Shown: in pieces, positions 1,071 to 33,446 of the stretch
Numbering within the stretch: position 1 is the stretch's first letter
How the letters are laid out: every line of letters starts with the position of its first letter
Origin: a virus
Virus record (IMG/VR): IMGVR_UViG_3300048588_000590
Coordinates: 1-35,542 of that record
Length of the DNA: 35,542 bases
Strand: one strand, 5' to 3'
Notes under the pieces: model-generated
The model's input: the letters and a program-made list of their open reading frames with translations, nothing else
The model's database searches: none
Told to the model about the DNA's origin: nothing
Position numbers and translations under genes: made by a program

Positions 1071-1464
1071 CCGGTTTCTCCCGCAAAGCGTGCAAGTCGG
1101 GAAGAGCGCGGATGTACGTCTTAACGGCGGAGAAACGATTGCGAAGCAAATCAAGGTCGGCACTCGCGTCTTCGATTTTCTCGCGAAGCTCCTTTTGCTG
1201 CGAACGAACCACCCTGTATCCCTCGTCTTCCGAAAGAGCCTTCTTCGCTGCGTTCTGCCTTTGCTCTGCGTTCGTGTGCACGGGCTTTCCCGTTTCAGGA
1301 TTCGTGAGTGCGCTCACGTGCAAGAAAGCTTCTGCGTTCGCGTCTTCGATTTTCTCGTTGAGTACCAAAGCTTCTCGTTGGAGAAGGTTGAGTTGTGTTG
1401 CGAAAGCGTGCATCTGCGCAGGCAGTGCGAGCATTTCTTCTGATAATTCTTCGTTGGTTTTCAT
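1066..1464 (-). CDS. Coiled-coil protein of viral recombination neighbourhoods
   Basis: The protein has 132 residues and is almost entirely helical. Heptad-like stretches at residues 1-45 and 85-120 flank a conserved-looking loop containing LTNPETGKPVHTNAEQRQ followed by ALSEDEGYR. I recall this loop-plus-coil arrangement (a TNPETGKP-type loop, then an LSEDEEY-type helix) from small phage proteins next to ssDNA annealing and binding genes. Their function is not established. The start overlaps the stop of the TOPRIM gene (ATGA). The TATA box for the next unit lies over its own stop. Confidence 0.85.
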   Translation of the reverse strand: MKTNEELSEEMLALPAQMHAFATQLNLLQREALVLNEKIEDANAEAFLHVSALTNPETGKPVHTNAEQRQNAAKKALSEDEGYRVVRSQQKELREKIEDASADLDLLRNRFSAVKTYIRALPDLHALREKPE

Positions 1465-2357
1465 AGTTCTTCCTCCGCGCGGTCGCGTTCTTGGTCCGCG
1501 TACTCGCTTATTCTGTCTTTGTCTTCGTCTTCTTTTTCAAGAATTTCTCTGTACTTGTCGAGGTCGATTAGGTTTTTGATTGCGTTCTCGACCAGTTTGT
1601 GAAGCACTTCTGGTTTGAGCGCGTCTACTTCCCAGCTCGTACGCCCGAAGTCGCGAACGTAGTCTTTGGCTCGTGGGTCGCTGAATTTCGCCGGGTTTGG
1701 TGGCGGGTTGTACTGCCGAACTTGCGCGGTCGTGAGCGCGATTGGTGTGACTTTGAGCTCGACACCGAACTCTAATAAGCGGTCGCGGATGTCCCGTATC
1801 ATATCCAAACCGCTTGGGTCGTGGTCGCCAAGATAGAGGATGTGCAAATCCTTCCCGTCTTCCGCCGCGCTCTCGAACCGCTTGTAGCTGTCATACATAG
1901 CGCTCGCGCTGCTGTACCCACGGTTCACCATTAAGTGGACGTGGTACGGTTGCGTAACTCGCTTGAGAACCCCTGAGAGCGCATCCTTCTCAACCCACAC
2001 TTCAATGTACACGTCTTGATTAGCGAGGCGGTTACGGCGGAACTGTTTCGCGCACGCTTCAAGAATGTCGGCTGGGCTTTCCCACGCTGAGGGAATATTC
2101 GGTACGCGTACACGGTCTTCGATAGCGTCCCAGTCTACAATACCCGCCATACGTCCCTTCACAAGTAAGCCCGAAAGCTTTGCATACTCTCGTTGGTCGT
2201 TTGCGATGACGTTCTTCGTGACGAGCTGATAATAAAGCTGGCGAAGTGTGAGCTTATAGCCCTGCTCTTGGTAGCTCTCGATGATGGAGTTAATTATTTG
2301 CAAGCGTTCGAAGTTAGCTTTGTTCAAACCAATTTTTTCCCGGAAGCGTTCTTTCAT
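1461..2357 (-). CDS. Spo11/topoisomerase VI subunit A-like TOPRIM protein
   Basis: The protein has 298 residues. The N-terminal helix-turn-helix-like region holds LTLRQLYYQLV (Tyr42/Tyr43), resembling the motif around the DNA-cleaving tyrosine of TopoVI-A/Spo11. A conserved segment GIVDWDAIEDRVR follows. The TOPRIM domain (about 115-210) has its metal-binding Glu123 in VEKDALSGVL and Asp178/Asp180 in YLGDHDPSG. The C-terminus is a charged helix. No TopoVI-B (GHKL ATPase) partner is present. The start ATG 2357 is chosen because it forms ATGA with the metzincin stop and has GAGGTG just upstream; a longer open frame reaching 2576 would run over the neighbouring gene. Relatives occur in many viruses, and nicking or double-strand break formation is plausible but unproven. 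Confidence 0.9.
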   Translation of the reverse strand: MKERFREKIGLNKANFERLQIINSIIESYQEQGYKLTLRQLYYQLVTKNVIANDQREYAKLSGLLVKGRMAGIVDWDAIEDRVRVPNIPSAWESPADILEACAKQFRRNRLANQDVYIEVWVEKDALSGVLKRVTQPYHVHLMVNRGYSSASAMYDSYKRFESAAEDGKDLHILYLGDHDPSGLDMIRDIRDRLLEFGVELKVTPIALTTAQVRQYNPPPNPAKFSDPRAKDYVRDFGRTSWEVDALKPEVLHKLVENAIKNLIDLDKYREILEKEDEDKDRISEYADQERDRAEEEL

Positions 2358-2689
2358 CGGCGCACCTCTTGAAGCTTTTCTGTGTCGTCGGCGTAGTCTT
2401 TCGGGTCGTAGTGGCAGCTCATCAAGCCGTTTCGTTCGTGGCGCATTCCGAGAGTGTGCATTATTTCGTGAATGAATACGTCGGTGAATAGTCGCAATGA
2501 GCAGCTTTCTTTTGGCAAGCGCATTCGAATCCATTTCTTCCCGATGCCTGCGCGCCCCGATAGCCCAGTGCGGCAATAAACAACAGTTACTTCATAGCCT
2601 GTATGAACAACTCCTTCGGAAGCAAATATTTCGGTCATAAGTTGCTTCAATTCGCGATTGTTATACTGCGTTTTATTGGTGAGTTTCAT
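2354..2689 (-). CDS. Minimal metzincin-like zinc metalloprotease
   Basis: The protein has 111 residues. Residues 74-84 read HEIMHTLGMRH, a complete HExxHxxGxxH zinc-protease signature (His74, His78 and His84 as ligands, Glu75 as catalytic base). Met90 in GLMSCHY could form a Met-turn, although it lies closer to the zinc site than usual. There is no signal peptide, so it would act in the cytoplasm or as a virion component. The start has a GGAGG ribosome site. It is translationally coupled to the genes on both sides. It is very short for a metzincin, with little more than the active-site helix and one small subdomain. The substrate is unknown. Confidence 0.85.
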   Translation of the reverse strand: MKLTNKTQYNNRELKQLMTEIFASEGVVHTGYEVTVVYCRTGLSGRAGIGKKWIRMRLPKESCSLRLFTDVFIHEIMHTLGMRHERNGLMSCHYDPKDYADDTEKLQEVRR

Positions 2690-4296: not shown

Positions 4297-4692
4297 CTAC
4301 GCGCAGTCTTCTTCGTGGTCGTCGCTCGCAACGATGTCTTCGAGCAAGTGCTTATAGTAGCCAGTGTATGCTCCGTTGAGAGTTGCGTGGTCGAGCGCCG
4401 CATAGTACGCTTTGCATTCCCTTTCTTCAACCGTGAACGCTCTGTCTGGGTGGAACGCGCGCAAGAAAACAGGGTCTATGTCTATCCATCGCTGTATCGC
4501 GGCGTTGTAGCACTCGTCGAGCCACGTGTGAAGAGAATATCCCTTCGGCTTGAAGTGACCGAGCATATCATCAAGAGCGAGGAAACGGCTTGCACGGGGC
4601 GCGTACACGATGTCACCCATAAGGATTCTATTCAATCGGTAACGGTGTTTCGGCGTGGCTCCTTCAATTTCTTCTGGTGGTTCCCAAGTCAT
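4297..4692 (-). CDS. Conserved-looking late protein, possible transglutaminase-like fragment
   Basis: The protein has 131 residues. Residues 55-74 contain HTW, then CYN, then RWIDIDP. That spacing recalls the His and Asp parts of the transglutaminase/papain-like core (H-x-W ... W-x-x-x-D-P). However, no upstream cysteine nucleophile exists (the first Cys is 61), so enzymatic activity is doubtful. The C-terminus is acidic. The start ATG 4692 overlaps the stop of the phosphoesterase (ATGA); a longer frame to 4872 would run inside that gene. Placement between the phosphoesterase and the holin-like gene suggests a role late in infection. The assignment is weak. Confidence 0.7.
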   Translation of the reverse strand: MTWEPPEEIEGATPKHRYRLNRILMGDIVYAPRASRFLALDDMLGHFKPKGYSLHTWLDECYNAAIQRWIDIDPVFLRAFHPDRAFTVEERECKAYYAALDHATLNGAYTGYYKHLLEDIVASDDHEEDCA

Positions 4693-5504
4693 ACACTCAC
4701 TCGAATCATATACTCGTCGCCGTGAAGCTTTACTTTCGGCGTGCCCATCTTGCTTGGAGGCATCGACTGGGCTTGCGCGTAGCTGTTCTCCCAGCCGAGA
4801 TAATGACCCGTGAGGACGAAATGACGCTCTTTTGTGCGGACTGTGCCGGAGCGGTTGTCGATATAACGGCATTCCATCGCTGTTGCTGCTTTCTCGTGAA
4901 CGTGTCCCATCAAGTACACGTCCGCGTCAATGAAGCGCGATAGTTTGAGGAGCGGGAGCATTTTCTGTGTTGGTTCACGCGCTCCGCTGCTTCCGTGCGT
5001 CGCGTACAAATGATAGTTCTGCGAGCCGACGCGCATCTTCACGAAACCGCCGTTCCGATAATACGGTACGCCAAGCATTCCAGCGAGCGCAGCGCTCACG
5101 TCCACGCCCGTTTCTTTGAACACGCGGTCTTCGTGGTTCCCGTTCGTGGTGCCGATGATGCGTCCTTCTTCCGCGAACGGTTTGAAAACGCTGTACGCCC
5201 AGTCGATTTGTTCCCCTGCCGTCATTCGTTGCTCGTAAACGCCGCTCCCAACGCTGTATCGGGTGGCGGCTTCAATCAAGTCGCCGTTAAGAATTAAGAC
5301 GACGTCGGGTTTGTCCCAGCACCACTCAAGATTCTCCATAAAGAGCTCTTCGCGGAAGTTCGGGCTTCCCTTGTGAAGGTCGCTGAAAGGAACGAGAGTT
5401 GCTTTGTCAAGATGAGAAAAATCAGCGCTGATAAAGTTTGTTGGTCGAGCGTTGCGTGCCGCGTGCTCCTCGATTATTTCTTGGAGCGAGCGGCGGCGAG
5501 CCAT
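4689..5504 (-). CDS. Calcineurin-like metallophosphoesterase
   Basis: The protein has 271 residues with the full set of metallophosphoesterase motifs in order: SDLHKG (Asp42, His44), NGDLIE (Asp75), NGNHED (Asn123, His124), ATHG (His170) and MGHVHEK (His201, His203). These bind two metal ions and hydrolyse phosphomonoesters or diesters. Closest in style are viral and archaeal members of unknown substrate; DNA-processing Mre11-type enzymes are larger. It is encoded between two membrane proteins, which may be coincidental. It follows the coiled-coil membrane gene by three bases and overlaps the next gene by four. Confidence 0.92.
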   Translation of the reverse strand: MARRRSLQEIIEEHAARNARPTNFISADFSHLDKATLVPFSDLHKGSPNFREELFMENLEWCWDKPDVVLILNGDLIEAATRYSVGSGVYEQRMTAGEQIDWAYSVFKPFAEEGRIIGTTNGNHEDRVFKETGVDVSAALAGMLGVPYYRNGGFVKMRVGSQNYHLYATHGSSGAREPTQKMLPLLKLSRFIDADVYLMGHVHEKAATAMECRYIDNRSGTVRTKERHFVLTGHYLGWENSYAQAQSMPPSKMGTPKVKLHGDEYMIRVSV

Positions 5505-5921: not shown

Positions 5922-6236
5922 TCAGTAAACGCACGCGACGAGGTTGCAGGAGCACTCCGGCGTGACGTTTTCTCCGCAGTATCCCGTCCAGTCCCATTCG
6001 CTTTTCTGTCCATCGCACGAGTGAACGTCCATCAAGTCTTGACATAGTTCCATACAAGCGCTGTTGTTGAGCCCTGTGTAGTTCTTCACTGCGTTCGTGT
6101 TTCCTATTTCGTAGCATACGCTCGTTGCTTTCGGGACGCAAGTGAGGTTTTCTGGGCAGGCTGTCGGGGAAACGGGAGTGCAGGCTGTCATCACGAAAGC
6201 TGCTGCGAACAACCAAGCAAGGGTCTTCAAGTTCAT
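5922..6236 (-). CDS. Cysteine-rich secreted lipoprotein
   Basis: The protein has 104 residues. Residues 1-18 are a signal peptide ending in the lipobox-like VMTAC, with Cys19 the expected lipidated residue. The mature part has ten further cysteines and sequons NYT, NNS and NVT, as expected of a disulfide-bonded, glycosylated surface protein. The start overlaps the stop of the larger lipoprotein (ATGA). No enzymatic motif is visible. Viral lipoproteins are often superinfection-exclusion factors, a guess here based on topology. Confidence 0.85.
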   Translation of the reverse strand: MNLKTLAWLFAAAFVMTACTPVSPTACPENLTCVPKATSVCYEIGNTNAVKNYTGLNNSACMELCQDLMDVHSCDGQKSEWDWTGYCGENVTPECSCNLVACVY

Positions 6237-6853
6237 CGTAATCGCACCACCGGAGTTTCTGGTTCTTCGTCTTTCCCGAGCACAGGCACGTCGGTCGATA
6301 ATGGCGGGCGTGTGCGCTCACGGATAAGTTCTTTTACTGGTTCGAGGTCAACTGCTCGAAGGTCTTTCTTGAATGAAAGCTCTGTGGAATTTCCTGTCAC
6401 GGGGTCTGTGCAGCGCCACACGAAGACGTGCGTGTACTGGCTCCGTGCGTCTTCGCTTGTGAGAAGCGCTTTCCGTGAACAAGTTGAAATATTTACGCGG
6501 TTGCTCGTGTTGAGGCGTTCGTATTCAAGTTCCCAAGCAGCGGCGACCGTCAAGTAGTCGACGCGTGTTGAAGTGTTTGCATCAACGAATATTTCGTACG
6601 GGGCGCGGCGGTCTCCTGTCGATACGTTGCCGACGACTTCTGCTTCTGTGAATCGCTCTGTTTTGTTTTCTATCGTTCGATTGAACGCCGTTCGGATGGG
6701 GTTTTCGTCGATGCTTGTGATGTTTTTTTGCGCGGAAGCTGTGGGTGTTTGAGCGCATCCAGTGATTAAAACGACAAGAAACAGCGCTGCGACTGCTATG
6801 AAGCACACTTTGAAGAGGCTTGGTTTGATGTCAACTTTTCTTGGTGTGCTCAT
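6233..6853 (-). CDS. Membrane-anchored lipoprotein with many glycosylation sequons
   Basis: The protein has 206 residues. A positively charged N-terminus precedes a hydrophobic stretch (residues 14-31) ending LITGC, a lipobox at Cys33. The mature domain has eight N-x-S/T sequons (for example NIT, NRT, NKT, NVS, NIS) and two cysteines, and ends in a Pro-rich acidic tail. It overlaps the LamG protein stop and the small lipoprotein start by four bases each, so it belongs to the surface module. Either it anchors the secreted LamG protein or it alters the host envelope; I cannot decide which. Confidence 0.85.
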   Translation of the reverse strand: MSTPRKVDIKPSLFKVCFIAVAALFLVVLITGCAQTPTASAQKNITSIDENPIRTAFNRTIENKTERFTEAEVVGNVSTGDRRAPYEIFVDANTSTRVDYLTVAAAWELEYERLNTSNRVNISTCSRKALLTSEDARSQYTHVFVWRCTDPVTGNSTELSFKKDLRAVDLEPVKELIRERTRPPLSTDVPVLGKDEEPETPVVRLR

Positions 6854-31085: not shown

Positions 31086-31366
31086 CGGAACTCTCCTTCG
31101 ACAATCTCGATTGCGTGGGTCTTCGCGTAACGGCGTGTCTCGGAAGGAAAGCGCTTTATCTTGCCCTCAACAGTTTTGAGCATATCCTTGACCCTCTTGC
31201 GGTCACGAAGGTTCGCATTCATAGACCTCTTCGCTTGGGACAAACGCTGCTCTTGTATCTTCACGCTTTCTTTCGCGTTGATGAGGTCTCTTCCGAGAAT
31301 CTCCAAACGCACTTTATAAGCGTCCCTTTGTCGTTTAAGAAACTCTATGTTGTCGCGCACTCCCAT
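31082..31366 (-). CDS. Small coiled-coil protein
   Basis: The protein has 94 residues, nearly all one helix with heptads (NIEFLKRQRDAYKVRLEIL, RLSQAKRSMNANLRDRKRV). It has a net positive charge. The start overlaps the previous stop as TGATG. No homologous family is evident; dimeric DNA-binding or structural roles are possible. Confidence 0.78.
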   Translation of the reverse strand: MGVRDNIEFLKRQRDAYKVRLEILGRDLINAKESVKIQEQRLSQAKRSMNANLRDRKRVKDMLKTVEGKIKRFPSETRRYAKTHAIEIVEGEFR

Positions 31367-31791
31367 CAGTCGTCCTCCGGTGCTTCCGCCACTTCGAGAC
31401 GGTCGAGATTCATTTTCTTCGCGAGTTCGTCGCTCGCTTCAAGAGCGCGCACAATCGCTATCGTGTCGTGAATATCGTTTTGACCCACCCACGAATAGCC
31501 CGAGTTCTCTTCTTCGCCGCTTTCGTGAACGAGACCGATGAGACCGCCCGCCATAAAAGGCATATGGAGCGGACAACAAGGCATCATCACTGAAAGAGAA
31601 GAAGACGGTCTTCCTTCTTGGTCGCGCTCTTCGTACGCAGCGAACAACCCACCGTTCTCCGTTCGTTTAAGAATCGGAACTCCGACGTTGATGAATTGTT
31701 TTCGTTTGCAGCCCGGGAAACTGCACGGAGCTTCCTTCAATTTCTGCACTTGCTCTTTGAAATCCTTCTTTGCTTTTTCGTTGCGGTCCAT
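31366..31791 (-). CDS. Early protein with C/H-rich core
   Basis: The protein has 141 residues. A charged N-terminal helix is followed by CSFPGCKRKQFINVG and MMPCCPLHMPFMAGGLI, which may bind zinc with Cys23, Cys28, Cys72, Cys73 and His76. The C-terminus is a helix (IHDTIAIVRALEASDELAKK). The arrangement of CxxxxC, then a polar stretch and CCPLH, resembles viral proteins of unknown role. GAGGAT precedes the ATG. Confidence 0.78.
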   Translation of the reverse strand: MDRNEKAKKDFKEQVQKLKEAPCSFPGCKRKQFINVGVPILKRTENGGLFAAYEERDQEGRPSSSLSVMMPCCPLHMPFMAGGLIGLVHESGEEENSGYSWVGQNDIHDTIAIVRALEASDELAKKMNLDRLEVAEAPEDD

Positions 31792-32466: not shown

Positions 32467-32605
32467 GCGGCACCTCTTTGAAGACCGTCCTTCGGCGTAG
32501 GAAGTAGTACACTATCGCGAGCGGGAAGAAAACAATCGTCCAGAAAACGAGCGTCCACTTGCTCCCGTAGAATTCGGTGACAACGGCTTTATACGTGCGT
32601 GTCAT
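32453..32605 (-). CDS. 50-residue membrane protein
   Basis: A short frame from ATG 32605 encodes a 17-residue polar start, one transmembrane segment (WTLVFWTIVFFPLAIVYYFL) and a basic tail ending PLVKK. TAATG joins it to the clamp gene, and it overlaps the zinc-ribbon gene by 14 bases. It would insert in the cytoplasmic membrane early in infection. Possibilities are superinfection exclusion or tethering of replication, with no direct evidence for either. Confidence 0.75.
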   Translation of the reverse strand: MTRTYKAVVTEFYGSKWTLVFWTIVFFPLAIVYYFLRRRTVFKEVPLVKK

Positions 32606-33030
32606 TATTCAATCCTCGGGGCGAGCCATAATGCGAAATGCTCGGTTTTTATAGCGATGGGTGTGTTCTTTCCCATTTCGAACGATGCTGATTCGTCCAT
32701 TAAGTGCGCTGCCGTAACGATTTTTTGTACGTACTCAAGAGAGTAGCGCGTGCTCACAAGCTTCGAAACGGGCGGGTCAGCGACTTTTTCAGTCGCGTCG
32801 CGAGACGGCGCTTTGCTTGCGTGGCTCCACCACGGGCGCAATACTTGCTCTGCTTCGGAAGTGAGCGGCACTACTGCGCAGACGTTCGCTGCGTCCATTA
32901 CGCACCACTCTTCTTTGAGGCGTTCGCGCGGGTTCACGTCTTGGTGCTCCCTGTACCCTTCAACTGGGATTATTGTTGCGAGGGCTTGCTGCACTCGAAG
33001 GCAGCTCCGACCGATAGGTTCTGGTTTCAT
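32605..33030 (-). CDS. Short PCNA-like sliding clamp (single-domain size)
   Basis: The protein has 141 residues, against about 245 for archaeal PCNA. Residues 41-58 (EWCVMDAANVCAVVPLTS) match the first-domain motif around AMDPSHVALV. Residues 94-141 match the extreme C-terminus: TRYSLEYVQKIV, NTPIAIKTEHF and the terminal LAPRIE. The middle two quarters of a normal clamp and the interdomain loop appear missing, replaced by a basic and polar linker (about 65-93). It probably interacts with host replication factors or forms a ring by higher multimerisation. The sequence motifs are clear to me; the architecture is inference. Confidence 0.8.
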   Translation of the reverse strand: MKPEPIGRSCLRVQQALATIIPVEGYREHQDVNPRERLKEEWCVMDAANVCAVVPLTSEAEQVLRPWWSHASKAPSRDATEKVADPPVSKLVSTRYSLEYVQKIVTAAHLMDESASFEMGKNTPIAIKTEHFALWLAPRIE

Positions 33031-33446
33031 TCTTTCTTCTCCGTGTCTTTCGTGGCGTTGCTTTGTCGTTCTGCTTCCTCTTCGATGCGCGTTATCTGGT
33101 GCATCGAACGATAAACAGTCTCCGAGACCCTTATCAAGTCGTGCGGCGCCGTTATCTTGAGATTCTTGCAGTCTTCCTTCTCCGTGACGAGAAACAAGTC
33201 TCCGTCTCGCGCGAGATTGATTGCGAGGACGTTATGGTGGAAGCAGAACGGAACAGGGATTGTCTTGTTCTCGATGATGCGAGGCTCTTTGCCGTCTTCG
33301 ACCATCACCACTTGAAGAGGAACGTGAATCCTTGCTGGGCGTGTGCAACGGTTTATTCCGCAGGGATGGTCTTTTTCCATATGCTCTTGAAGGCGTTGCT
33401 CTGGTGTTTTTTTGTCAATGCTTGCTTTTTGTTTAATCGTTTCCAT
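33027..33446 (-). CDS. Early protein with possible zinc site
   Basis: The protein has 139 residues. CGINRCTRPARIHVPLQVV (residues about 29-47) and FCFHHNVLAI (about 68-77) could bind one zinc through two Cys, one Cys and two His. The C-terminal third is helical and highly charged. It lies just upstream of the clamp gene and overlaps it (ATGA), so co-expression is certain if the clamp is made. No function is recognised. Confidence 0.78.
   Translation of the reverse strand: METIKQKASIDKKTPEQRLQEHMEKDHPCGINRCTRPARIHVPLQVVMVEDGKEPRIIENKTIPVPFCFHHNVLAINLARDGDLFLVTEKEDCKNLKITAPHDLIRVSETVYRSMHQITRIEEEAERQSNATKDTEKKE

Follow-up and report, generated by a model that had tools for sequence, protein, structure and literature searches.

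A 141-residue viral protein with the C-terminus of PCNA, possibly a stripped sliding clamp acting on the host replisome

In archaea and eukaryotes alike, DNA replication has PCNA as a hub. According to PMC8357120, its subunits consist of two domains and those of the bacterial beta clamp of three. In Haloferax PCNA the connector comprises residues 109–129, and the subunit interface strands of archaeal PCNA lie around residues 102–103 (PMC2737543); in human PCNA, residues 40–44, 117–135, 230–235 and 251–253 build the PIP-box pocket (PMC6881253). Two-domain PCNAs have about 245–265 residues, and among the matches listed from 197 archaeal genomes the PCNA frames were at least 243 residues long, except for one of 176 residues which begins at the edge of its sequence. 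The protein described here, from the IMG/VR virus record IMGVR_UViG_3300048588_000590, has only 141 residues, short of the two-domain length. In our preferred, still tentative reading, it is a PCNA-derived clamp which has been stripped of its middle and which may act on the host replisome, via PIP-box clients or host PCNA.

The window, i.e., the whole stretch of DNA analysed, comprises 35,542 nucleotides (see Table 1 for the features discussed). A sequence-only reading had taken the 141-residue protein to be a sliding clamp reduced to about one domain, and its ORF proved to be genuine: it is encoded by the minus strand, the plus strand being interrupted by stops at these positions, and its codon usage is coding-like, as in the long genes of the virus, which does not hold for the other frames. 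The ATG overlaps the TGA of the preceding gene (ATGA) and is itself preceded by GGAGAAG. The open frame extends upstream to 33231 but contains no ATG, GTG or TTG there, so that a longer start is unlikely. The gene is real, intact, and positioned as an expressed gene would be, and the ATGA overlap makes co-translation with the upstream gene probable. The upstream product was considered as the partner in a split clamp and rejected, as with 2.7 bits (E 1.6) its match to PCNA is at chance level and its look is that of a zinc-binding protein. It is weakly similar to the product of 31366–31791 (minus strand; 31% over 42 residues, E 0.03), which has the same zinc-binding look, and the two are possibly distant paralogues.

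Table 1. Positions, within the window, of the clamp-like gene, its segments and its upstream neighbour
Feature	Positions	Strand	Residues	Remarks
PCNA-related gene, 141 aa	32605..33030	minus		ATG at 33030, stop TAA; best PCNA-profile match of the 515 window ORFs
PCNA last half-domain	32608..32757	minus	92–141	profile, half-domain model, hhalign, BLASTP, AlphaFold
N-terminal part without recognizable family	32758..33030	minus	1–91	library searches, D1a+D2b test
Motif VMDAANVCAV	32872..32901	minus	44–53	moderate resemblance to PCNA AVDPANVAMV
Neighbouring gene, 139 aa, zinc-binding look	33027..33446	minus		upstream; ATGA overlap with the clamp-like gene

Since the PCNA_C model of Pfam performs poorly with archaeal clamps, giving genuine haloarchaeal PCNA merely 22–32 bits, a PCNA profile was built from 48 diverse archaeal and viral sequences. 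It matched the 141-residue ORF with E 3.3e-5 (runner-up in the window, E 0.8), and the matching part, residues 92–141, is the last half-domain of PCNA. A model of this half-domain gave the protein 21.7 bits, as compared to at most 7.9 bits among about 20,900 control ORFs, real and reversed, from this and other viral contigs; with the C-terminal segment alone the score was 25.7 bits, all shuffles staying at or below 8.5. The protein thereby scored 20.9–25.7 bits versus 15.9–17.7 bits for the PCNA of Methanobacteriales virus vir249, an annotated full-length viral PCNA which had been left out of the training set. Alignment by hhalign to the 48-sequence profile covered the same residues (90.2%, E 1.5e-6), and BLASTP against the PCNA of HHTV-1 returned 2e-6 in one single comparison. 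The segment consists of the helix SLEYVQKIVTAAH and the strands SASFEMG, TPIAIKT and FALWLAPRIE, with the last hairpin shortened in the same way as in HHTV-1 PCNA. The C-terminal PCNA landmarks pointed out in the sequence-only reading are thus far beyond chance, and these comparisons give good support to a descent of the C-terminal third from PCNA. That the protein is unrelated to PCNA and resembles it by accident is very improbable. Searches of Pfam, PHROGs and PDB sequences with the 141-residue protein did not return a match, but the profile, the half-domain model, hhalign and BLASTP all lead to the PCNA C-terminus, and Pfam PCNA_C scores even true haloarchaeal clamps low.

The middle of the PCNA profile, comprising the second half of D1, the first half of D2 and the connector loop between them, matched neither the protein nor any of the 515 window ORFs, in agreement with the earlier claim that this part is missing. 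The loss is real and includes the connector loop as well as the strands of the subunit interface; the connector and the interface positions of Haloferax PCNA both map to the part that is missing here. By alignment, and in human numbering, we take residues 45–49, 120–125 and 136–138 to be the counterparts of the human pocket segments 40–44, 230–235 and 251–253, respectively. Three of the four pocket segments are thus represented, and the fourth, the connector loop 117–135, is gone. However, these segments belong to the best-conserved columns of PCNA, and seeing just them may therefore be an effect of detection and need not reflect selection on the pocket.

The N-terminal landmark that had been proposed, CVMDAANVCAVV, stands where PCNA has AVDPANVAMV, the strand beside the PIP-box pocket, and its order and its distance from the start are fitting (about residue 44, as compared to 40 in PCNA); PCNA counterparts read SVDAANICMV in L097 and AVDLANVCMV in L148. 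While its place is as expected, its score is only suggestive. A 13-residue PSSM gave the motif 11.07 bits, a value reached by 7 of 9,937 control ORFs and surpassed by another, probably non-coding ORF of the window; with a D1 half-domain model, the protein ranked 7 of 2,000 shuffles, and 31 of 3,000 shuffles equalled its score. With p about 0.001–0.01, the motif is a probable PCNA landmark. Apart from these ten residues, neither the profile nor the half-domain models indicated any PCNA resemblance in residues 1–91. The idea of a protein built from the first plus the last quarter of PCNA found no support beyond the motif: when a spliced D1a+D2b model was used, 880 of 3,000 controls with shuffled N-termini scored as high, so the model gains nothing from residues 1–91. 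A fusion protein, in which an N-terminal domain unrelated to PCNA is joined to the last half-domain of PCNA as a module that might, for instance, bait PIP-box proteins, would fit an N-terminal part that belongs to no recognizable family and shares just a ten-residue motif with PCNA. However, the motif is correct in kind, order and distance from the N-terminus (p about 0.001), and we consider such a fusion improbable.

Structure prediction bears on the proposal that D1a and D2b join as one domain, six copies of which close a ring. AlphaFold run on the single sequence was useless (pLDDT 38.6). Provided with an alignment that had been deliberately steered towards PCNA, its N-terminal rows covering D1a, it returned a model with a mean pLDDT of 56.7 and a pTM of 0.49. 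The C-terminal half of this model contains a helix (98–111) and strands (116–119, 125–128, 132–137) as expected, with pLDDT mostly 67–78; the N-terminal part, predicted with low confidence (mostly 37–67), contains a helix (6–18) and two strands (42–45 and 50–55). Foldseek searches with the steered model retrieved no significant match and no clamp match across the whole domain, the best clamp match being 3l0x_B, a chain of split yeast PCNA (65 columns, E 0.4). AlphaFold prediction of the monomer thus gave no confident PCNA-domain fold, and a complete one-domain clamp fold of the 141-residue protein is not supported by the models.

Within an ordinary PCNA subunit, the edge strands D1 and I2 meet each other. 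Both would be retained in a one-domain clamp, and head-to-tail copies could reuse their junction. A subunit of this kind would also agree with the order and place of the N-terminal motif, with the secure C-terminal half, with the helix and strands which AlphaFold tentatively puts in the N-terminal part, and with the steered alignment, which can place residues 1–64 on D1a and 89–141 on D2b. Without the steering fragments, however, the aligner did not place the N-terminus on D1a, shuffled N-termini did as well in the D1a+D2b test, and both the pTM and the Foldseek result speak against a whole clamp domain. The claim of a complete domain in a six-copy ring was therefore not upheld; the idea of the ring rests on the ten-residue motif. 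We regard a natural one-domain sliding clamp of this type, with six subunits per ring and arisen by fusion of the first and last PCNA quarters, as unlikely. If true, such a ring would have a bearing on clamp evolution; its form would be like the one in which the common ancestor of clamps is frequently pictured.

The virus encodes terminase, portal, capsid and tape-measure proteins and is a tailed virus. Its host is probably archaeal, as suggested by the PCNA-derived gene and by the product of 6233–6853 (minus strand), which is rich in N-glycosylation sequons (8 N-x-S/T sites versus 1.7 expected); this protein is a putative, secreted lipoprotein (VLITGCAQ). Neither a polymerase nor a clamp loader nor a full PCNA was found among the viral proteins scanned, and for these proteins the earlier statement that the virus has no polymerase holds, albeit for a record which is listed as linear and is possibly a fragment. 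A topoisomerase-family protein (1461–2576, minus strand; PHROG 6247 ‘DNA topoisomerase’, E 3e-97) shares 49% identity with a Flavobacterium phage protein and 57% with IMG/VR contigs, and an SbcD-like nuclease of PHROG 7339 is encoded by 4689–5504 (minus strand). Full-length PCNA is present in other archaeal viruses, and in vir249 (L239:5964-7405) the PHROG 7339 nuclease family is found directly upstream of the PCNA gene. Relatives of the 141-residue protein were not confirmed in IMG/VR, GTDB contigs, phages or plasmids; the marginal database matches look like chance, and there was, separately, one C-terminal match to a 297-residue frame (E 0.02). Terminase, capsid and topoisomerase queries retrieved distant relatives through terminase and topoisomerase only, and these had neither PCNA nor the 141-residue protein. 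Apart from the terminase, topoisomerase and nuclease relatives, the virus is nearly alone in the databases searched, in which no close relative was found.

For the stripped clamp that we prefer, the course of events would be as follows. A PCNA sliding clamp lost its middle and would no longer form the ordinary three-subunit ring; instead, the clamp piece would act on the host replication machinery. Because three of the four pocket segments are kept and the connector is gone, the likeliest job would be either the binding of PIP-box clients or an attachment to host PCNA, as an insert or a cap, with the outcome that host enzymes are drawn to viral DNA or that host replication is weakened. A function is favoured by the intact and apparently co-translated gene and by its well-kept C-terminal half-domain, and the gene content, with topoisomerase-family protein and SbcD-like nuclease present and polymerase, clamp loader and full PCNA not found in the scanned proteins, provides a supporting context. 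If the pocket-side fragment is functional, it would show how a virus lacking a polymerase can influence the replisome of its host by means of a mere clamp piece, with the connector loop and the ring interfaces dropped. Counting against the stripped clamp are the moderate significance of the N-terminal motif, the possible detection effect in the retained segments, the low confidence of the AlphaFold fold as a whole, and the result of a PIP-box scan of the viral proteins, which revealed no clear C-terminal PIP-box and a sole, internal match in the portal protein.

The main rival of the stripped clamp is a decaying remnant, i.e., a viral PCNA gene from which an internal part was deleted and which now drifts without present function. 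A precedent is known from Halorubrum tailed virus DL_1.7, another archaeal tailed virus with a short PCNA-derived ORF (L001:1956-2264, OP630576.1). The DNA of its 102-residue stump equals the PCNA gene of the relative DL1 (L003:256-1005, OP630574.1), which is complete, for about 294 bases and, after a sharp break, is unrelated; judged from this comparison, the stump shows a viral clamp gene in the course of decaying. It keeps the N-terminal end of PCNA and has lost the remainder, whereas the 141-residue protein keeps the C-terminal end. Decay would also agree with the disappearance of nearly all PCNA resemblance from the N-terminal part. In contrast, the reading frame is unbroken, its start and the upstream stop overlap, the codon usage is normal, and the C-terminal half-domain fits its model no worse than the one of vir249 does, so that we rate a remnant as rather unlikely; if it were one, it would show how viral clamps are lost.

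Among other clamps, we know of no one-domain subunit in the bacterial beta clamp or the phage clamps, and no paper on a PCNA with a single domain was found in a literature search, which covered a limited library whose silence is not proof. What the protein might have in common with the beta clamp and phage clamps is the idea of six domains per ring (PMC8357120). This likeness is a general one; the sequence itself matches archaeal PCNA. In the split yeast PCNA (PDB 3l0x), a C-terminal PCNA piece likewise forms its own chain; that protein is a laboratory construct in which a partner chain provides the remainder, whereas no partner was seen in this virus. From the archaeal and viral PCNAs, such as HHTV-1 gp54, phiCh1 PcnA and HFTV1 gp63, the 141-residue protein differs in that the connector loop, the second half of D1 and the first half of D2 are absent and residues 1–91 are otherwise unrecognizable. 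It resembles them in the AVDxANVxMV-like motif near residue 44 and throughout the C-terminal 50 residues, which are alike down to [YF]SL[ED]Y, G....P and LAPRI.
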